A stretch of DNA of 64,000 nucleotides from Arthrobacter sp. NicSoilB4 (lineage in GTDB: Bacteria > Actinomycetota > Actinomycetes > Actinomycetales > Micrococcaceae). The stretch spans positions 2,666,001 through 2,730,000 of the forward strand of contig NZ_AP024653.1 in NCBI RefSeq assembly GCF_019977335.1, read 5' to 3'. Shown one piece after another: positions 40,863 to 57,990 of the stretch (within the stretch, counting starts at the first letter, position 1; each line of letters opens with the position of its first letter). The position numbers and the translations under genes were made by a program. The notes under the pieces are model-generated. The model searched no databases, was not told the DNA's origin, and saw nothing but the letters and a program-made list of their open reading frames with translations.

Positions 40863-41231
40863 TGGTGGAGATGGGGGGAATTGAACCCCCGTCCGATGTC
40901 GTGTTGTCAGGGCTTCTCCGGGCGCAGTTTGCGTCGGATTTTCTCGGCCCCGGCCATGCTGCAAACAGCTGGCCGATCCGGGCCCAGTCATCTAAGAGTC
41001 CCGTTCACCCCGATGACGGAGGTAAACAGCAGTGGCTATCTAAATGACGCCAGGATCCGGGGCAATAGCAACCTCGGGCTGACGGACTGTCTTACTGCTT
41101 AGGCAGCGAGAGCGAAGTCAGTGCGTTTTGATTCGGCACTTATTGGTTTGCAGACAGCGTTTACGAGATAATTCTGCATCCTCGGCCCGCTTCACCTGTC
41201 GCGACTAACATCGTCGAAACCGATCATCCCC
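40863..41231 (-). ncRNA. ssrA: Transfer-messenger RNA (tmRNA)
   Basis: A 369-base tmRNA. Read on the minus strand, the 5' end begins GGGGATGATCGG, and the 3' end is a T-arm GGTTCAATTCCCCC followed by CATCTCC and ACCA. GGGGATG pairs with CATCTCC as the acceptor stem. The internal tag ORF at 41099-41137 starts with GCC and reads AESKRTDFALAA, ending in TAA. The CCA is encoded. A GATAAC -10 element lies at 41239-41244, seven bases before the start. It rescues ribosomes stalled on broken mRNA with SmpB, encoded just upstream. Confidence 0.96.
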
Positions 41232-48162: not shown

Positions 48163-49104
48163 CTACAGACCGATGCTGATCGCTGCCAGGCCGGGGTAGA
48201 CGGCGAACAAGACCGTCAGCGGCAGGACGCCGAAGACCACGGGAATCATCATTGCGATTTCCTTCTTTCCGGCGGACTCCATCAAGTCCCGCTTTGCCGT
48301 GTCCCGGACGTCCTGGGCCTGTGCCCTCAGCACCTCCGCGAGAGGCGTTCCCCGTTCGACCGCGACGATCAGCCCGTCCACGAAGCGGAGCAATGGGCCG
48401 AGCTCAGTCCGTGACGAGAACTCCTGCAGCGCTTCCACGAGCGGCTTCCCTGCCCGGGTCTCGGCCAGGACGCGGGTGAAGTCCTTCGACAACTCTCCCC
48501 GGGCGCTGCGGCACACTCTGTCCAGTGCGCCCGTGGCGCTCTCACCCGCACTGACCGCGAGCGCCATGAGCTCGGCAATGCTGGGGAACTCCGCCATTAT
48601 GCGCGCTTCGCGCTTCCTGATCTGGGCGCCCAGCAGGTAATCCCGCAACATAAAACCGCCGGCCGCGCCGCCAAGCACCAGCACGACGGCCAGGAGGGGG
48701 CTGAACCGCCCGGCCACGCCGAATAGAACGACTGCTCCGGCAGCAGCGACAAATCCAGCCGCGCCCCAGAGAAGCTGCCCGGCCCGGAAATCGGCCGGCG
48801 ATTTGGCACTTCCTGCCCTGGCCAGACGTCGGTCCAACGCCGAGGAACCGCGGTTGAGCCTCCCCAGCCACGTCACAGCGTCGCCGAGAGCCGGACGCAG
48901 AATCCGTTCCAGGGGTCCGAACGGGGTGCTGTTTCCCGGCACCGTCCGCAGGAGCCGTGATTCCAGATTGTGGGACTTGAGCTGAGGGGCAATGCGTTCC
49001 GCAAACGTCGCCGGGCGCATGAACGGCAGCCTGACCATCAACAACCAGAAACCGCTGCCAAGGACAACTCCGCAGGCCACTGCCGCCGCGGTCAGCCCGG
49101 TCAC
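48163..49104 (-). CDS. tadC: Type II secretion F-family protein TadC
   Basis: A 313-residue T2SSF-domain protein. Hydrophobic segments lie at the N-terminus (VACGVVLGSGFWLLMV), the middle (PLLAVVLVLGGAAGGFMLRD) and the C-terminus (MMIPVVFGVLPLTVLFAVYP). The T2SSF core runs from FPSIAELMALAVSAGESATG to TPLAEVLRAQAQDVRDTAK. It forms the inner-membrane platform with TadB. GTG start in a GTGA overlap with the tadB stop. Confidence 0.9.
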   Translation of the reverse strand: MTGLTAAAVACGVVLGSGFWLLMVRLPFMRPATFAERIAPQLKSHNLESRLLRTVPGNSTPFGPLERILRPALGDAVTWLGRLNRGSSALDRRLARAGSAKSPADFRAGQLLWGAAGFVAAAGAVVLFGVAGRFSPLLAVVLVLGGAAGGFMLRDYLLGAQIRKREARIMAEFPSIAELMALAVSAGESATGALDRVCRSARGELSKDFTRVLAETRAGKPLVEALQEFSSRTELGPLLRFVDGLIVAVERGTPLAEVLRAQAQDVRDTAKRDLMESAGKKEIAMMIPVVFGVLPLTVLFAVYPGLAAISIGL

Positions 49105-49958
49105 CTGAGCACCCTCTCATCTGCCGGGAGCGCACCAATGCGCAGCATGACGGCATAGGAGACCAGGGAGACCGCCAGCCCGCCAAGCAGGACGGCGGCC
49201 CCGACGGGAGTGTTGTAGGCGGCCACCGCTTCGGGCCTGCTTGCCAGCAGCACCAGGACGATCCAGGGCGCTGCCACCGCAAGCCGGGCGGCGTTGACGG
49301 TCCAGGACTGACGGGCCTCCAGTTCGTTTCTGGTGCGCGCGCTCTCCCGCAGAAACTCCGCCAGAGTGCCCAACAAGCGGCCGAGATCGGAGCCGCCCAC
49401 CTCCCTCGTCAACCGGAGGGCCTCGACGATCCGGTCGGCCACGGGATCCGCCAGCCGGTCCTTGAGCCTGGTCAGGGAAGGATCAAACTGCCCGCCCGCA
49501 CGATAGTCAGAGCCAAATTCCCGGAACACCTGACGGAGTTCCTCCGGGCCCTTGTCGCCCAGTTGGATGAGGGCTTCCGGCAGCGACAGGCCGGCACGGA
49601 TCGCCGACCGCAAGTGGTCGACGACGTCGGGCCAGAGTTGGCGCAGCACGGCGGCGCGCTTCCGCGCGCGCCATTTCACGATAGCCATGGGCAGCCAGCC
49701 GCCAAACAGGCCAAAGCAGCCCGCGATCGGCCAGGACCTGGTCACTGCAAAGAAGACGAGCGTTGTGAAGGCTCCGACGCCGAGGCAGCTTGCCAGCAGT
49801 CCGGAGCCGCTGACTTTTTCTATTCCTGCGGTCCGCAGCAGATCCTCCAGACGCTTGGCCTTGCGAGGACCGGCGCCTGCAACTTTGGGTTGTTCCCAGG
49901 CAGACCACCAGATCAGCAGGAGTCCGGCACCGGCGAGCATGCCGAGAAGCGCTGCCAT
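49101..49958 (-). CDS. tadB: Type II secretion F-family protein TadB
   Basis: A 285-residue membrane protein. N-terminal helices are MAALLGMLAGAGLLLIWW and TLVFFAVTRSWPIAGCFG. The T2SSF region has LWPDVVDHLRSAIRAGLSLP and GGSDLGRLLGTLAEFLRESA. Two C-terminal helices follow. Start ATG 49958 overlaps the tadA stop by one base, so translation is coupled. Works with TadC as the platform of a Tad/Flp pilus. Confidence 0.9.
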   Translation of the reverse strand: MAALLGMLAGAGLLLIWWSAWEQPKVAGAGPRKAKRLEDLLRTAGIEKVSGSGLLASCLGVGAFTTLVFFAVTRSWPIAGCFGLFGGWLPMAIVKWRARKRAAVLRQLWPDVVDHLRSAIRAGLSLPEALIQLGDKGPEELRQVFREFGSDYRAGGQFDPSLTRLKDRLADPVADRIVEALRLTREVGGSDLGRLLGTLAEFLRESARTRNELEARQSWTVNAARLAVAAPWIVLVLLASRPEAVAAYNTPVGAAVLLGGLAVSLVSYAVMLRIGALPADERVLR

Positions 49959-51181
49959 CAGCGCGGTTCCAGCAGAGCCGCGACGTCGTAGCCGGATCGG
50001 GCGAATTTCTCGGCTGCGGGCATCGAGTTGGCCCTGGGCTGCAATTGTCCGTCCGCCAGCGCGAAGACCATCGAGGACTCGATGATGCCGTTTTCCACTC
50101 TCCGGCCCAACGACAGGATCTCTGTCACCTCTCTGCGTCCGCTGGCATGCCGGGCACAGTGCACCACGAGGTCGATGCACGAAGCGACGGTCGGAACCAC
50201 GAAGGCGCTTGAGATGTTCTCGCCTGCCAGCAACGGGAGGGTGCAGATCTTGGTGACCGCGTCGTGCGACGAATTTGCGTGGACCGTGCACATGCCTGGC
50301 AAACCAGAGTTCAAAGCGATCAGCATGTCCAGGCTCTCGGCCTCGCGGACCTCGCCCACCACCAGCCGGTCGGGGCGCATGCGCAGGGCCTCCTTGACCA
50401 GCCGGCGCATAGGGATTTCGCCTTCACCTTCCAGGTTGGGCTGCCGGCACTGCAGCCCCACGACGTCCCGCAGCGGAAACTGCAGTTCGAAGATCTCCTC
50501 CACGGTGATGACGCGCTCGCGGGTTCCAATGCTCGCGGCGAGGCAGTTGAGCATTGTGGTCTTGCCCGCCTGCGTTGCGCCGGAGACCAGGATGTTCAGG
50601 CCGCTGGCCACGGCCGCGCCGAGGAACCGGGCGGCCTGCGGTGTCAGCGTGCCCAGTTCCACCAGATGCTCCAGGCGGCTCGCTTTCACTACGAACTTAC
50701 GGATATTGATGGCCCAGTGACGCCTCGTCACGTCGGGAATCACAACGTGCAGGCGGGAACCATCGGGAAGGGCGGCATCCACAAAGGGTGACGACATGTC
50801 GAGCCGGCGCCCGGAACTCTTGAGCATCCGTTCCACGAGGTCCCGGACCTGCTGGTCTGTGAGCGAGACGGAGGTCAGCTCCGATTCGCCGTTCCGGGCC
50901 ACGTAGATCTCGTTCGGGGCGTTGAGCCAGATTTCTTCGATGGCGGGGTCGTCGAGAAGGGGCTGCAGGGCTCCGAACCCGGCCACGGCGTCGAAGACGA
51001 ATCTCCGGGCCGTCTCCAGCGGGCCGATTGGCGGGAGGGGACCAAGCAGGGTGCGCTCGTCGTAATCCATGACTGCTGCCTCGACGAGACGGCGGACTTC
51101 GCCGGCCTGCGTTGTGGGGTCGAGGCCGCGCCGGCGAATCAACTCGCGGACTTCGCCTTCGACGATGCGTACAGCCTCCAC
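49958..51181 (-). CDS. tadA: Tad/Flp pilus secretion ATPase TadA (CpaF family)
   Basis: A 407-residue VirB11/GspE-like ATPase. The Walker A motif is SGATQAGKTTMLN, the Asp-box ITVEEIFELQFP and the His box MCTVHANSSHDA are present. An N-terminal domain includes EEIWLNAPNEIYVARNGE. The GTG at 51181 with GGGGG six bases upstream is preferred over TTG 51193. First gene of the minus-strand tad cluster. No prepilin peptidase, TadZ or secretin-like gene is in the window. Confidence 0.92.
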   Translation of the reverse strand: MEAVRIVEGEVRELIRRRGLDPTTQAGEVRRLVEAAVMDYDERTLLGPLPPIGPLETARRFVFDAVAGFGALQPLLDDPAIEEIWLNAPNEIYVARNGESELTSVSLTDQQVRDLVERMLKSSGRRLDMSSPFVDAALPDGSRLHVVIPDVTRRHWAINIRKFVVKASRLEHLVELGTLTPQAARFLGAAVASGLNILVSGATQAGKTTMLNCLAASIGTRERVITVEEIFELQFPLRDVVGLQCRQPNLEGEGEIPMRRLVKEALRMRPDRLVVGEVREAESLDMLIALNSGLPGMCTVHANSSHDAVTKICTLPLLAGENISSAFVVPTVASCIDLVVHCARHASGRREVTEILSLGRRVENGIIESSMVFALADGQLQPRANSMPAAEKFARSGYDVAALLEPR

Positions 51182-51480
51182 AATGGCCCCCAATATGACT
51201 GCTTGCCCTGTCCCCGGGGCGCTGCAATTGGGTTAAAGCTAGAGGCGGCCGAGTCCCAGAACAAGGCCTAGCCGGGCTGCATGTGGAAAACCGCCATCCG
51301 CATTCATAACAATTATCACACTAGTCACACCAGAAACTCTGGTTCACCCTATTAGGCGATGTTAGGGTGGGCGCGACAAGTCAGACATTCTCACATCCCG
51401 GACAGCTTTGCATTGCTCAGCCCCCGGGTGCGAGACCATCATGACGCGGCCACCATCGTGTCATTGTTCCGGAGCGGCAA
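51182..51480. promoter_or_regulatory. Divergent control region of tadA and the lysozyme gene
   Basis: A 299-base gap without a believable gene. It holds an AT-rich stretch with TTCATAACAATTATCACAC near 51304, a CCAGAAACTCTGG inverted repeat near 51329 and GTTAGGGTGGG near 51361. The lysozyme ATG at 51481 is preceded by CCGGAG. Two promoters facing away are expected, but no -35/-10 pair is clear enough to name. Confidence 0.35.
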
Positions 51481-54462
51481 ATGAAGCGGACCCTACTTCC
51501 CCCCAACAGTCACCTCCACAGCCGGGCCGGAGCCGCGCTTCTGGCCACCGCTCTCCTGGCCGGCGCCGGTCTGGCTGCTCCGGCGGGTGCCGTTGAGCCC
51601 TCACCGAGCGCCTCTGCGACTCCCACAAGCACTTCGTCATTTTCGCCGTCCGCCCCTGCCAACCCGTCACCCACCGCGACCACCCCACCCCCAACTATTG
51701 CCCCCGAAATCCAGCAGGGCACTTCCGCAGCAACGACGGAGCCGGCGCCAGCCGACTACAGGTCCGTAATGGCGGCAGCCGCAGGTCCGGGCGGTGCCGA
51801 GATGGGCCATGGCGCCACCGGCGGGACAAGCGCAAAAACGGAGTCACTGGCCACCGAAGGGACCTGGACCCCAACGTTTGGTGTCCAGGGCCTGGACGTG
51901 AGTTATTACCAGGCAGGCGTCAATTGGCAGGAGCAGTGGAACATGGGCGCCCGCTTCGCCTATATCAAGGCCACTGAAGGCAATTACTATTCAAGTCCGT
52001 CTTTCGCTGCCCAGTACCAAGGTGCCCGGAACGTGGGCATGATCCGGGGCGCCTATCATTTTGCCAACCCGATGGCGTCCTCGGGAGCGGACCAAGCCAG
52101 AATCTTCGTTCAGGGCGGTGGCCGCTGGTCCGCTGACGGTTATACGCTGCCGCCGGTCCTCGACTTCGAGACGAACCCATATGCGGGACGGACAATCAAC
52201 GGCTTCTATCAGGGAAACACCTGCTACGACATGTCGGCCAGCCAGTTGGCAGGCTGGGCGCGCGACTTCGGCAATACGATGCTGTCGCTGACGGGCCGGA
52301 TGCCGGTCATCTATACCAACACGTCCTGGTGGCGACAGTGCGTCGGTGATGCAGCCGGATTTGGCGACTTCCCGCTGTGGACCGCCTATTGGCCGAGTTC
52401 AGCCAGCAACTACGCCGGCCCCCTGCCATCGAGCTGGTCGAGCTACAACTTCTGGCAGTACAGCGAGTCCGGCCCCTTCGCCGGAGACTCCAATGTCTGG
52501 AACGGCAGCTACGCAGAGTTAAGTGCCTTCGCCAACGCCGGAATTCCGCAAGCCGCTGTTAGGGCGATTGCTGATCTGGCGGCTGTTTCTCCGGGGCTGG
52601 GCCGGGCCGTGACCGGTTTGAAGACCGGTCTGAACGGTGGGGTGTCCCAGGGCTACGAGAATGGTGCGATCTACTGGACCGCCGCCAACGGAGCCCACAT
52701 CTCATCCGGTGTCATCCGGGATGCCTGGGGCGCCCAGGGCTGGGAAGCCGGAGTCCTCGGCTACCCCACCACCGACGTGCGGACCGCCGCCAACGGCGCC
52801 CAATCCCAGGGCTACCAAAACGGTGCGATCTACTGGACCGCAGCGACCGGGGCCCGCATCTCTACCGGTGCGATCCGGGATGCCTGGGGCGCCCAGGGCT
52901 GGGAAGCCGGGCCCCTCGGCTACCCCACCACCGACGTGAAGACCGCCCCCAACGGGGCCAAGTCCCAGGGCTACGAAAACGGTGCGATCTACTGGACCGC
53001 CGCCAACGGGGCCCGCATTTCATCCGGTGTCATCCGCGACGCCTGGGGCGCCCAGGGCTGGGAAGCCGGCCCCCTCGGCTACCCCACCACCGACGTCCGC
53101 ACTGCCCCCAACGGGGCCAAGTCCCAGGGCTACGAAAACGGTGCGATCTACTGGACCGCCGCGACCGGGGCCCGCATCTCTACCGGGGCGATCCGGGACG
53201 CCTGGGCTGCCCAGGGCTGGGAATCCGGGCCCCTCGGCTACCCCACCACCGACATACGGACCGGCCCGAAGAACGGACTGTCCCAGGGCTACGAAAACGG
53301 TGCGATCTACTGGACCGCCGCGACCGGCGCCCGCACGACATCCGGCGTCATCCGCGACGCCTGGGCCGCCCAGGGCTGGGAAGCCGGCCCCCTCGGCTAC
53401 CCCACCACCGACGTGCGGACCGCCCCCAACGGGGCCAAGTCCCAGGGCTACGAAAACGGTGCGATCTACTGGACCGCCGCGACCGGCGCCCGCATCTCAT
53501 CCGGTGTCATCCGCGACGCCTGGGCCGCCCAGGGCTGGGAATCCGGCCCCCTCGGCTACCCCACGACCGACGTGAAGACCGGCCCGAACAGCGGGCTGTC
53601 CCAGGGCTACGAAAACGGTGCGATCTACTGGACCGCCGCGACCGGCGCCCGAAGCACATCCGGCGTCATCCGCGACGCCTGGGCCGCCCAGGGCGCCGAA
53701 TCCGGCCCCCTCGGCTACCCCACCACCGACGTGCGGACCGCCCCGAACGGAGCCAAATCCCAGGGCTACGAAAACGGCGCGATCTACTGGACCGCCGCGA
53801 CCGGCGCCCACATCTCATCCGGAGCGATCCGGGATGCCTGGGCCGCCCAGGGCTGGGAAGCCGGCCCCCTCGGCTACCCCACCACCGACGTCCGGACCGC
53901 CCCCAACGGGGCCAAATCCCAGGGCTACCAAAACGGCGCGATCTACTGGACCGCCGCCAACGGGGCCCGCATCTCATCCGGCGTCATCCGCGACGCCTGG
54001 GCCGCCCAGGGCTGGGAATCCGGTCCCCTCGGCTACCCCACCACCGACATACGCACCGCCCCCAACGGAGCCAAATCCCAGGGCTACGAAAACGGCGCGA
54101 TCTACTGGACCGCCGCCACCGGAGCACACGTCTCATCCGGCGCAATCCGCGACGCCTGGGCCGCCCAGGGCTGGGAAACCGGACCCCTCGGCTACCCCAC
54201 CACCGACGTGAAAACCGCCCCCAACGGAGCCAAATCCCAGGGCTACCAAAACGGCGCGATCTACTGGACCACAACCACCGGAGCCCAACTCAGCCCCAAC
54301 GGACCCATCCGCAACGCCTGGGGCGCCCAAGGCTGGGAATCCGGCCCCCTCGGCTACCCCACGGGTCCCCAAACCTGCACCGCAGCCGCAGATAGCTGCA
54401 ACCAACCATTCACCGGCGGAAGAATCACATGGACACTTTCACGCGGCGCTTTCATCGGCTAG
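51481..54462 (+). CDS. Secreted GH25 lysozyme with C-terminal LGFP-type repeat array
   Basis: A 993-residue secreted protein. The signal peptide (AGAALLATALLAGAGLAAPA) probably ends near AGAVEP. A Ser/Thr/Pro linker covers about residues 40-90. The GH25 (Lyc muramidase) domain spans about 135-355, with GLDVSYYQAGVNW (Asp139), YIKATEG and the catalytic VLDFE (Asp228 and Glu230). From about residue 358 a repeat array follows: units of 53 residues with LGYPTTD and SQGYENGAIYW, ten in register plus partial ones at each end. LGFP-type repeats bind cell-wall or envelope structures. It probably cuts peptidoglycan near the cell surface. The array DNA is nearly identical to that of the next gene. It has no cell-wall sorting signal. 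Confidence 0.9.
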   Translation: MKRTLLPPNSHLHSRAGAALLATALLAGAGLAAPAGAVEPSPSASATPTSTSSFSPSAPANPSPTATTPPPTIAPEIQQGTSAATTEPAPADYRSVMAAAAGPGGAEMGHGATGGTSAKTESLATEGTWTPTFGVQGLDVSYYQAGVNWQEQWNMGARFAYIKATEGNYYSSPSFAAQYQGARNVGMIRGAYHFANPMASSGADQARIFVQGGGRWSADGYTLPPVLDFETNPYAGRTINGFYQGNTCYDMSASQLAGWARDFGNTMLSLTGRMPVIYTNTSWWRQCVGDAAGFGDFPLWTAYWPSSASNYAGPLPSSWSSYNFWQYSESGPFAGDSNVWNGSYAELSAFANAGIPQAAVRAIADLAAVSPGLGRAVTGLKTGLNGGVSQGYENGAIYWTAANGAHISSGVIRDAWGAQGWEAGVLGYPTTDVRTAANGAQSQGYQNGAIYWTAATGARISTGAIRDAWGAQGWEAGPLGYPTTDVKTAPNGAKSQGYENGAIYWTAANGARISSGVIRDAWGAQGWEAGPLGYPTTDVRTAPNGAKSQGYENGAIYWTAATGARISTGAIRDAWAAQGWESGPLGYPTTDIRTGPKNGLSQGYENGAIYWTAATGARTTSGVIRDAWAAQGWEAGPLGYPTTDVRTAPNGAKSQGYENGAIYWTAATGARISSGVIRDAWAAQGWESGPLGYPTTDVKTGPNSGLSQGYENGAIYWTAATGARSTSGVIRDAWAAQGAESGPLGYPTTDVRTAPNGAKSQGYENGAIYWTAATGAHISSGAIRDAWAAQGWEAGPLGYPTTDVRTAPNGAKSQGYQNGAIYWTAANGARISSGVIRDAWAAQGWESGPLGYPTTDIRTAPNGAKSQGYENGAIYWTAATGAHVSSGAIRDAWAAQGWETGPLGYPTTDVKTAPNGAKSQGYQNGAIYWTTTTGAQLSPNGPIRNAWGAQGWESGPLGYPTGPQTCTAAADSCNQPFTGGRITWTLSRGAFIG
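52552..54362 (+). repeat. LGFP array DNA, copy 1 of a 1.8-kb duplication
   Basis: 1811 bases, matched to 56074-57884 with offset 3522 and no gap. Only three differences were seen by eye: 53328, 54006 and 54024, all silent. Inside, LGYP codon units begin at 52756 and recur every 159 bases to 54187, then after 162 bases at 54349. The sharp edges are within coding frames of both proteins. Confidence 0.95.
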
Positions 54463-54480
54463 CTTCACCGGGCAATACGA

Positions 54481-54503
54481 GGGCGGTGCCGTCCGCGCCG
54501 CCC
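54481..54503 (+). terminator. Hairpin after the lysozyme gene
   Basis: GGGCGG (54481-54486) and CCGCCC (54498-54503) pair with an 11-base loop, 19 bases after the stop codon. No T-run. The rest of the 249-base gap before the protease gene holds only a GAAGGAA ribosome site. Confidence 0.4.
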
Positions 54504-54711
54504 GGCTCCCGAGCTGCCGCGCTCCCGCTTGTTTGCCGCAGGAAGCCACCACCGTGAGCGCAATCAGCCTCCTGCACGCATAGGAAATGCGAAGTATTCG
54601 CCCTACCGTCCGGATCGCTGTAAAACCGGTCCATAAACTACTCTGACTTCCCTGTCTCGCCGTGAACGCCCCAAGCGCCGGCTGTAGGCACCATGTTCTT
54701 CGAAGGAAAAA

Positions 54712-57700
54712 ATGAATCCCAAACGGATGATGGCAGCCCTTGTCACAGCTGTGGTTGTCGCGGCGGCGTCGCTGACCGCAGTCTCGGCTGCTGCAGCTCA
54801 GGCAACAGAGCCGCTGCCGTCGGCTACTTCGACAGCGGCCCCTGCGGCTCCGGCCGCACCTTCGGAGCCGGAGCCGACTGTTCAGCCGACCGCAACGGCG
54901 ACGTCGACGGACGCGGCAGTCGCCTCGGAGGGGACGACTCCTTCTTCCCCCGCAGTTGCGGAGACAACCGCTATTCCTCCGGTCGTTGAACAGACCGGCG
55001 GTGCGCCAACCTCTGTCCACACCTTCCAGACGCCCCCCTTGGAGGGAAGCAAGGGAGCGGCGCCGCGGGCACTCGGTACGGAGTCCTACTCGCTCGCACG
55101 GACCGGAGTCATCAAAGTGCGGCTTGTGACCGTGCAGCTAACCGATTACAAGGCCAACATCTCCATGGACACCGCAGTTTCCGCTGTCCAGGCGACCAGC
55201 AACTACTGGCAAACCATGTCCAATGGCAGGCTCAGCATGAGCGTCGCCAGCACCGAGACGCTTAACAGCCGCAGCGCCTCCTCAGGCCAACGATATTCAG
55301 ACATGATGAACACGATCACCAATGAACTTGGCTGGGTTGCAAACCCCTACACGGCTCTCGTGGTCTTCGTTTCGACGCCGACGCTCTCCGACGGGGCCTA
55401 CGGTGCGGGCTGGAGCTACAACGGGACCAGCGGGCGCGTAATCATGCCGCTTCCGGCATCCCTGACTCGAAGTGTCCTCACGCACGAATTCGGCCACGTA
55501 CTCGGCCTCATGCACGCCAACAGCCTCGAGTGTGGCAGCGGTGCCCAGGACGTTGCGACCAACAGCGATGGCACGTTTGCAGATGCATCATGCAGCGTCC
55601 GGGAATACGGCGACAGCATGGACCTCATGGGAGTCTCCCAGACGTCCCAACCGACAATCAGCTCAACGCTGTGGGAATTTGGCGGCTTCGGCACCGGACG
55701 CGAGATCCGGGATGTCGGCAAGGCCGGCAACACGAGCAGTTACACACTCACAGCGTGGGCCGGAGGAGCCGACGGCCGAGCCGTGAAATTCACCGATCCG
55801 GTGAGCGGGGAGGTCTACTATCTGGAGTTGCGCCTGCCGGTCGGCTACGACGCTACTACCGCCACCAACGGCAACCGCGGCGTGAAGATCGTTCAACGGT
55901 TCGGAGCGGGCTCCCTGATCCTCATGCCAGATTCCCGCCGCTTCGCAGGCTATTACAGCTCCCGCCATGCCTGGCAGGCGGGTGAAACCTTCACAACGCA
56001 TGCAGGCTCCCGGGTGTCGGTCAACTGGATCTCCGACACGGCCGCCGGCATCACTATTGAGTCGACCGCTGCCGCCGCTGTTAGGGCGATTGCTGATCTG
56101 GCGGCTGTTTCTCCGGGGCTGGGCCGGGCCGTGACCGGTTTGAAGACCGGTCTGAACGGTGGGGTGTCCCAGGGCTACGAGAATGGTGCGATCTACTGGA
56201 CCGCCGCCAACGGAGCCCACATCTCATCCGGTGTCATCCGGGATGCCTGGGGCGCCCAGGGCTGGGAAGCCGGAGTCCTCGGCTACCCCACCACCGACGT
56301 GCGGACCGCCGCCAACGGCGCCCAATCCCAGGGCTACCAAAACGGTGCGATCTACTGGACCGCAGCGACCGGGGCCCGCATCTCTACCGGTGCGATCCGG
56401 GATGCCTGGGGCGCCCAGGGCTGGGAAGCCGGGCCCCTCGGCTACCCCACCACCGACGTGAAGACCGCCCCCAACGGGGCCAAGTCCCAGGGCTACGAAA
56501 ACGGTGCGATCTACTGGACCGCCGCCAACGGGGCCCGCATTTCATCCGGTGTCATCCGCGACGCCTGGGGCGCCCAGGGCTGGGAAGCCGGCCCCCTCGG
56601 CTACCCCACCACCGACGTCCGCACTGCCCCCAACGGGGCCAAGTCCCAGGGCTACGAAAACGGTGCGATCTACTGGACCGCCGCGACCGGGGCCCGCATC
56701 TCTACCGGGGCGATCCGGGACGCCTGGGCTGCCCAGGGCTGGGAATCCGGGCCCCTCGGCTACCCCACCACCGACATACGGACCGGCCCGAAGAACGGAC
56801 TGTCCCAGGGCTACGAAAACGGTGCGATCTACTGGACCGCCGCGACCGGGGCCCGCACGACATCCGGCGTCATCCGCGACGCCTGGGCCGCCCAGGGCTG
56901 GGAAGCCGGCCCCCTCGGCTACCCCACCACCGACGTGCGGACCGCCCCCAACGGGGCCAAGTCCCAGGGCTACGAAAACGGTGCGATCTACTGGACCGCC
57001 GCGACCGGCGCCCGCATCTCATCCGGTGTCATCCGCGACGCCTGGGCCGCCCAGGGCTGGGAATCCGGCCCCCTCGGCTACCCCACGACCGACGTGAAGA
57101 CCGGCCCGAACAGCGGGCTGTCCCAGGGCTACGAAAACGGTGCGATCTACTGGACCGCCGCGACCGGCGCCCGAAGCACATCCGGCGTCATCCGCGACGC
57201 CTGGGCCGCCCAGGGCGCCGAATCCGGCCCCCTCGGCTACCCCACCACCGACGTGCGGACCGCCCCGAACGGAGCCAAATCCCAGGGCTACGAAAACGGC
57301 GCGATCTACTGGACCGCCGCGACCGGCGCCCACATCTCATCCGGAGCGATCCGGGATGCCTGGGCCGCCCAGGGCTGGGAAGCCGGCCCCCTCGGCTACC
57401 CCACCACCGACGTCCGGACCGCCCCCAACGGGGCCAAATCCCAGGGCTACCAAAACGGCGCGATCTACTGGACCGCCGCCAACGGGGCCCGCATCTCATC
57501 CGGCGTCATCCGCGACGCCTGGGCCGCGCAGGGCTGGGAATCCGGCCCCCTCGGCTACCCCACCACCGACATACGCACCGCCCCCAACGGAGCCAAATCC
57601 CAGGGCTACGAAAACGGCGCGATCTACTGGACCGCCGCCACCGGAGCACACGTCTCATCCGGCGCAATCCGCGACGCCTGGGCCGCCCAGGGCTGGGAAA

Positions 57701-57990
57701 CCGGACCCCTCGGCTACCCCACCACCGACGTGAAAACCGCCCCCAACGGAGCCAAATCCCAGGGCTACCAAAACGGCGCGATCTACTGGACCACAACCAC
57801 CGGAGCCCAACTCAGCCCCAACGGACCCATCCGCAACGCCTGGGGCGCCCAAGGCTGGGAATCCGGCCCCCTCGGCTACCCCACCACCGGCGTGTATTCG
57901 ACAGGGAACGGCAACCTTGCCCAGAACTTCCAGGGCGGCCGAATCGACTGGTCATCAACTGCGGGAGTAAAGACCACCCTGTCCCGATGA
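54712..57990 (+). CDS. Secreted metzincin-type protease with C-terminal LGFP-type repeat array
   Basis: A 1092-residue secreted protein. The signal peptide MMAALVTAVVVAAASLTAVS probably ends at AAAAQA. A Pro/Thr-rich linker covers about residues 33-100. The protease domain carries HEFGHVLGLMH (His258, Glu259, His262, His268) and a Met-turn DSMDLMG (Met306), the metzincin pattern and close to the M11/gametolysin group. From about residue 455 it carries the same LGFP-type array as the lysozyme, identical in protein sequence over about 600 residues, then a different short end (GRIDWSSTAGVKTTLSR). It has GAAGGAA before the ATG. Substrate unknown; a wall or surface protein is likely. Confidence 0.87.
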   Translation: MNPKRMMAALVTAVVVAAASLTAVSAAAAQATEPLPSATSTAAPAAPAAPSEPEPTVQPTATATSTDAAVASEGTTPSSPAVAETTAIPPVVEQTGGAPTSVHTFQTPPLEGSKGAAPRALGTESYSLARTGVIKVRLVTVQLTDYKANISMDTAVSAVQATSNYWQTMSNGRLSMSVASTETLNSRSASSGQRYSDMMNTITNELGWVANPYTALVVFVSTPTLSDGAYGAGWSYNGTSGRVIMPLPASLTRSVLTHEFGHVLGLMHANSLECGSGAQDVATNSDGTFADASCSVREYGDSMDLMGVSQTSQPTISSTLWEFGGFGTGREIRDVGKAGNTSSYTLTAWAGGADGRAVKFTDPVSGEVYYLELRLPVGYDATTATNGNRGVKIVQRFGAGSLILMPDSRRFAGYYSSRHAWQAGETFTTHAGSRVSVNWISDTAAGITIESTAAAAVRAIADLAAVSPGLGRAVTGLKTGLNGGVSQGYENGAIYWTAANGAHISSGVIRDAWGAQGWEAGVLGYPTTDVRTAANGAQSQGYQNGAIYWTAATGARISTGAIRDAWGAQGWEAGPLGYPTTDVKTAPNGAKSQGYENGAIYWTAANGARISSGVIRDAWGAQGWEAGPLGYPTTDVRTAPNGAKSQGYENGAIYWTAATGARISTGAIRDAWAAQGWESGPLGYPTTDIRTGPKNGLSQGYENGAIYWTAATGARTTSGVIRDAWAAQGWEAGPLGYPTTDVRTAPNGAKSQGYENGAIYWTAATGARISSGVIRDAWAAQGWESGPLGYPTTDVKTGPNSGLSQGYENGAIYWTAATGARSTSGVIRDAWAAQGAESGPLGYPTTDVRTAPNGAKSQGYENGAIYWTAATGAHISSGAIRDAWAAQGWEAGPLGYPTTDVRTAPNGAKSQGYQNGAIYWTAANGARISSGVIRDAWAAQGWESGPLGYPTTDIRTAPNGAKSQGYENGAIYWTAATGAHVSSGAIRDAWAAQGWETGPLGYPTTDVKTAPNGAKSQGYQNGAIYWTTTTGAQLSPNGPIRNAWGAQGWESGPLGYPTTGVYSTGNGNLAQNFQGGRIDWSSTAGVKTTLSR
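56074..57884 (+). repeat. LGFP array DNA, copy 2 of a 1.8-kb duplication
   Basis: Matches 52552-54362 over 1811 bases. Differences by eye are at 56850 (G for C), 57528 (G for C) and 57546 (C for T), each a silent third-position change. Both ends fall inside the coding sequence, and the unique flanks on either side are unrelated. Confidence 0.95.

Follow-up and report, generated by a model that had tools for sequence, protein, structure and literature searches.

Near-identical LGFP arrays on neighbouring muramidase and metallopeptidase genes of Arthrobacter, probably produced by array exchange and maintained by gene conversion

In the window (the whole 64,000-nucleotide stretch of Arthrobacter sp. 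NicSoilB4 DNA that was analysed), two adjacent genes for secreted enzymes, a GH25 muramidase and an M43-like metallopeptidase, ended in nearly the same LGFP repeat array. With considerable confidence, from comparison of sequences, we propose that the metallopeptidase gene would have entered the muramidase locus by exchange between arrays, and that the direct repeats so created would then have been homogenised by gene conversion. The features of the locus were as follows.

48163–51193, minus strand: Tad-type secretion genes (T2SSF, T2SSF, T2SSE), with the same neighbours elsewhere, markers of the conserved GH25 locus
51481–54462, plus strand: secreted GH25 muramidase with C-terminal LGFP array, 993 aa (PF01183, PF08310, signal-peptide-like N-terminus)
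52552–54362, plus strand: shared array copy 1, from the start of the first LGFP unit to the last full unit, in 159-bp units
54363–54462, plus strand: 3' tail of the GH25 gene, of the G161/G216-cluster type and not the G015/G208 GH25 type by tail alignment scores
54463–54711, no strand: intergenic spacer, from the ORF coordinates
54712–57990, plus strand: secreted M43-like zinc metallopeptidase with C-terminal LGFP array, 1092 aa (PF05572, PF08310, motif HEFGHVLGLMH)
56074–57884, plus strand: shared array copy 2, from its base-by-base match to copy 1
57885–57990, plus strand: 3' tail of the metallopeptidase gene, of the type of the G015/G208 GH25 tail by tail alignment scores
58107–62713, plus strand: a GT4 glycosyltransferase gene, two GDP-mannose dehydratase-like genes and one membrane protein gene, which in G015 lie directly behind the GH25 gene

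Base-by-base comparison of the two array copies showed 1808 of 1811 bases to be identical. The mismatches (copy 1/copy 2: 53328/56850 C/G, 54006/57528 C/G and 54024/57546 T/C) were all synonymous third-position changes. Both tracts were in frame 0 of their host genes, and the 50-base blocks flanking either copy were identical only at the chance level. The preliminary description had reported, by eye, three silent differences at these positions and edges lying inside reading frames that agree; the alignment bore this out exactly, both edges included, and did not bring up many non-silent differences. Its statement that one array serves two unrelated enzymes also held, the catalytic domains being GH25 and M43-like metallopeptidase. 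A chance origin of the match was excluded.

The shared stretch was a 12-unit LGFP (PF08310) array with a tandem period of 159 bp, present as direct repeats spaced 3.5 kb. Units inside a single array were 81–94% alike, and each full unit was 0–2 bases off the unit at the corresponding position of the other array. Copying thus took place in whole blocks rather than one unit at a time. All 24 LGFP matches in this genome fell in these two genes, 12 in each, and no further LGFP gene was found in its 4.04 Mb on two contigs.

In the muramidase, PF01183 covered aa 139–335 (E 6e-46, 157 bits against a cut-off of 27), and the nearest solved structures to the protein were muramidase 6zm8 (E 5e-51) and Protein PS1 (6swz/6sx4). 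The metallopeptidase scored 25.9 bits with PF05572, barely above the cut-off of 23, and its solved-structure matches were weak (E 0.002) and to metzincins. Its HEFGHVLGLMH fits the zinc motif HExxHxxGxxH, of which the residues H, E, H, G and H were invariant across 13 homologues. It was accordingly classed as an M43 or metzincin metallopeptidase, with its place within the clan uncertain. Named relatives sharing the metallopeptidase were almost all Arthrobacter. PF08310 gave 12 stretches in each protein (E 7e-188 in the muramidase and 4e-183 in the metallopeptidase; 609 and 594 bits in the two proteins against a cut-off of 22), with units of about 53 aa. An NCBIfam riboflavin kinase match to the array (26.8 bits against a cut-off of 306) was rejected as spurious.

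Both proteins had a signal-peptide-like start by eye. Together with the LGFP repeats, this suggested that the muramidase and the metallopeptidase probably both act on the envelope. LGFP domains of Corynebacterium are described as interacting with the peptidoglycan layer (PMC12113857), and by analogy with that literature the array is presumably a wall-binding module. Elsewhere in the window, a tmRNA gene with the tag AESKRTDFALAA was present at 40863–41231 on the minus strand.

A search over 206 congeners, with one genome per species, found the GH25 domain in 202 and the metallopeptidase in 106. Among the coordinates listed, the two genes were neighbours in at least six genomes, six cases that are not fully independent of one another. 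The longest exact array runs were 776 bp in the genome of the window (G000), 1484 bp in G161, 651 bp in G216, 758 bp in G211, 556 bp in G175 and 1046 bp in G031. Overall identity in the best tract ranged from 92% (G175, the weakest) to 100% (G161, with no difference over 1484 bp), and the neighbouring arrays of G175, G211 and G031 were 92–97% identical.

For all 12 arrays of these adjacent pairs, the nearest relative was the array of the neighbouring gene (92–100%). Between species, on the other hand, the identity of these arrays was only 64–85%, a difference of 15–36%. The homogenised tracts were 795–1811 bp long and their ends varied among the six genomes, lying at the last full unit in the window and past the stop codon in G161. 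Likeness greater within genomes than between species, identity at synonymous sites, and recurrence with differing tract edges were thus all found, as in concerted evolution. In a tree of the catalytic domains, the adjacent metallopeptidases fell in three separate groups, and that of G211 was sister to the one of G018, whose two genes are 378 kb apart with an exact run of 84 bp. The likeness of neighbouring arrays within a species is most likely due to gene conversion.

With merely three differences in 1811 bp, the window taken on its own could be explained by a single event in this strain that copied the array of one gene onto the other, with nothing ongoing since. We give such a one-off duplication very little probability. 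The same two gene families were alike in five more species with varying tract lengths and edges, and in sister clusters both genes already had LGFP arrays. The recurrence in G161, G216, G211, G175 and G031 makes it implausible, and very unlikely, as a general account.

Long near-identical repeats assemble poorly, and draft contigs broke inside LGFP arrays in G015, G208 and G032. An assembler might therefore have duplicated or overwritten an array, and the perfect tract of G161 would fit such an error. The three differences in the window argue against it, as does the divergence between the neighbouring arrays of G175, G211 and G031, which a copying error would not produce. Four of the six genomes with adjacent pairs were, in addition, independent single-contig assemblies. 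An artefact appeared extremely unlikely, and conversion between real repeats remains the preferred reading.

Draft contigs also ended in or near LGFP arrays at L083:1, at the end of L084, in L085 and at the end of L086. Short-read assemblies are prone to break at such arrays, and adjacent homogenised pairs are therefore probably undercounted in them.

As controls, 20 pairs drawn from these two gene families but not adjacent gave longest exact runs of 9–84 bp, some of these pairs carrying an FG-GAP or unnamed repeat. They were about 375–405 kb apart if on one contig and otherwise on different contigs; in G095 the distance was about 8 kb, in opposite orientation. A second, non-adjacent metallopeptidase gene of G175, 5.8 kb away, gave an exact run of 38 bp. 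The fair set for comparison, seven non-adjacent pairs with LGFP arrays on both genes, gave exact runs of 16–84 bp. Homogenisation was thus found in six of six adjacent pairs against none of these seven (Fisher p 0.0006, relatedness not corrected for).

Among 127 within-genome LGFP pairs, again with no correction for relatedness, the six adjacent GH25-metallopeptidase pairs reached exact runs of 555–1374 bp inside the arrays proper, and 116 non-adjacent pairs had at most 84 bp. Five other adjacent pairs had 10–33 bp: GH25 with a polysaccharide deacetylase (G012), metallopeptidase with YkuD (once in G031 and twice in G175), and a further pair in G186. These five ruled out adjacency as a cause that suffices by itself. 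Neighbourhood was therefore necessary, but not sufficient, for homogenisation in this sample, and the arrays probably also had to be similar beforehand. With six of six neighbour genomes homogenised and none of the 20 examined non-neighbours, the system offers a natural experiment on what triggers gene conversion in bacteria.

A third LGFP gene adjoined the metallopeptidase gene in three genomes (L078:11421-13628, L080:11916-13844 and L086:665-2608). Its array was not homogenised. In L078 Pfam assigned its C-terminal domain to YkuD (L,D-transpeptidase), and L080 and L086 had sequence resembling it.

Both enzymes presumably bind the same wall, and selection for a common binding surface might keep the arrays alike without conversion. 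In 13 of 19 non-adjacent species the two enzymes had the same C-terminal repeat type (label shuffle p 0.002, relatedness not corrected), which is in line with such selection and hints, as a hypothesis, that a matched module is useful. The identity, though, reached synonymous sites: the differences in the window were all silent, and G161 had none in 1484 bp. Distant pairs, under the same presumed selection, were just 66–83% alike where they could be aligned at length. Selection on the protein is therefore refuted as the sole cause of the likeness, a reading to which we assign next to no probability; it may act alongside conversion.

The GH25 gene adjoined Tad secretion genes in most genomes examined, with or without a metallopeptidase neighbour; the Tad neighbours of the window were found in L076, L077, L078, L080, L081 and L083, and partly in L085, L107 and L109. 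G015 presented an empty site, in the order Tad-GH25-array-tail-GT4-GMD with no metallopeptidase gene, and no metallopeptidase homologue was found in G015 among the matches listed. The GH25 gene of G015 is broken across two contigs at the array. Its tail, QSFQGGRIDWSP, is followed by the GT4, GDP-mannose dehydratase and further genes found in the window behind the metallopeptidase gene. These downstream genes had 78–92% protein identity between the window and G015, and 74% DNA identity over 5.8 kb.

The window thus had G015-like flanks, with the metallopeptidase gene placed between the array and the tail. The tail terminating that gene scored 119 and 113 against the GH25 tails of G208 and G015, the next best score being 62. 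The GH25 gene of the window carried instead a tail scoring 131 and 121 against those of G216 and G161. A stretch across the start of the metallopeptidase gene (about 54687–54791) matched G161 at 74%.

A corresponding arrangement was seen in G211. The final 110 bp of its metallopeptidase gene and about 2.2 kb downstream matched, unbroken, the muramidase tail and flank of G018, and the sequence around the start of the gene matched the metallopeptidase locus of G018. The tail of the G211 muramidase gene was of the metallopeptidase type. An incoming gene with the resident tail and flank, beside a resident gene with the incoming tail, was therefore present in both comparisons (window with G015, G211 with G018). 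The insertion step rests on these two lineages; in the other four adjacent genomes the tails of the two genes were alike. At the ancestral metallopeptidase locus, about 400 kb off, the gene was missing in four of the six (G000, G211, G161 and G175), with the flanks joined within about 60 bp. This site was occupied in G024 and G031.

Swapped tails are the trace expected of one exchange event between a pair of LGFP arrays. From the empty sites, we propose that, as a first step, the muramidase locus acquired, through homologous exchange between arrays, a metallopeptidase gene that already bore an LGFP array. The metallopeptidase gene would thereby gain the muramidase tail and downstream flank, and the muramidase gene would receive a foreign tail. 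The preliminary description had proposed either a very recent duplication or gene conversion still under way, and this reading was supported. Six genomes speak for recurrent homogenisation. Simple recent duplication is the weaker half, because the array of the metallopeptidase gene precedes the original tail and downstream flank of the muramidase gene, which insertion followed by conversion fits better.

The whole cluster might also have been acquired by horizontal transfer with its arrays already homogenised. The GH25 and metallopeptidase trees disagree, and LGFP arrays have clearly recombined between species, the array of the window being nearest to G015/G208 (81–85%) and its GH25 domain to G068/G111/G095. 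On the other hand, the resident G015 type was seen in the tail of the metallopeptidase gene as well as in the flank behind it, so the cluster could be incoming at most in part, and homogenisation in the donor would be left unexplained. We consider transfer of the whole cluster very unlikely, and prefer exchange at the locus followed by conversion.

In the second step of this scheme, direct repeats 3.5 kb apart would be repeatedly homogenised in each lineage by gene conversion, the mechanism proposed for the observed pattern, and the non-homologous catalytic domains would halt the tracts. This mechanism agrees with the whole of the data. Since the metallopeptidase domain would be lost by crossing over between the arrays, selection retaining the enzyme may favour non-crossover products. 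The genome of the window had a NucS-type match (G000:C1:2628456-2628818, outside the window), and no MutS_I match was found in it. In its mismatch control of recombination it thus departs from the tuf model of Salmonella. In a third step, both enzymes would come to share one version of the wall-binding module while the module changes fast between species.

As the empty sites indicate, one enzyme gene can enter another by way of a repeat array with neither being destroyed. More tentatively, and as a possibility we rate below even chances, LGFP arrays may form a genus-wide exchange platform: envelope catalytic domains would swap in via the arrays, conversion would keep neighbours on one module version, and wall specificity would shift jointly with the wall polymers. 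For annotation and phylogeny, such pairs call for caution, since the array tracks the genome and the catalytic domain tracks the gene.

Protein PS1 of Corynebacterium carries about five LGFP units. The partners here differ from PS1 in being a muramidase and a metallopeptidase with 12 units each. They resemble the Corynebacterium LGFP proteins in their family (PF08310, described in PMC2447325, and the sequence match to solved PS1) and in an envelope role.

Concerted evolution, conversion, and displacement of 3' ends via a shared core are already known in bacteria (PMC6053082, PMC5485169, PMC2935791). Recurrent concerted evolution in prokaryotes was described for 26 genes (Wang and Chen 2018, PMC6053082) and for mtrA (PMC4632066). 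As in these cases, which were ascribed to recurrent gene conversion, paralogues within a genome were closer than orthologues across species, synonymous sites included, in many lineages. Those cases concern paralogous genes, whereas here a mere repeat domain is shared by genes with non-homologous catalytic domains, and neighbourhood divides the homogenised from the other pairs.

Gene conversion in Salmonella tufA/tufB (PMC5485169) likewise acts between two near-identical chromosomal copies, in continuous tracts and under a RecBCD/RecA model; in our case conversion is the proposed mechanism. The tuf copies are of the same gene, 762 kb apart and in inverse orientation, whereas here copies about 380 kb apart were not homogenised and adjacent direct copies were. 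As in rhs genes (PMC2935791), a resident 3' end would have been displaced via homologous recombination in a shared part, which decouples core from tip. The present case departs from rhs in that recombination would have run through the wall-binding repeat array, displaced a tail of about 33 aa along with its flank, and brought in a complete enzyme gene.

A literature search, with most subscription papers outside it, found no description of domain-limited, neighbour-dependent homogenisation between enzymes whose catalytic domains are unrelated, with an empty site pointing to entry via the array. It found no report on Arthrobacter LGFP genes except one paper naming both words, nor did it turn up work on gtfB/gtfC conversion.

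Between species, orthologous GH25 and metallopeptidase genes had one C-terminal repeat type swapped for another (L106–L145). The type was LGFP, FG-GAP (PF13517) or a repeat of about 110 aa that gave no Pfam match (SFDSLxV...GWAVD). The longest match to the array of the window outside its own genome (1.7 kb, 70%) was a subtilase (S8) with 17 LGFP stretches at L079:5292-9467.
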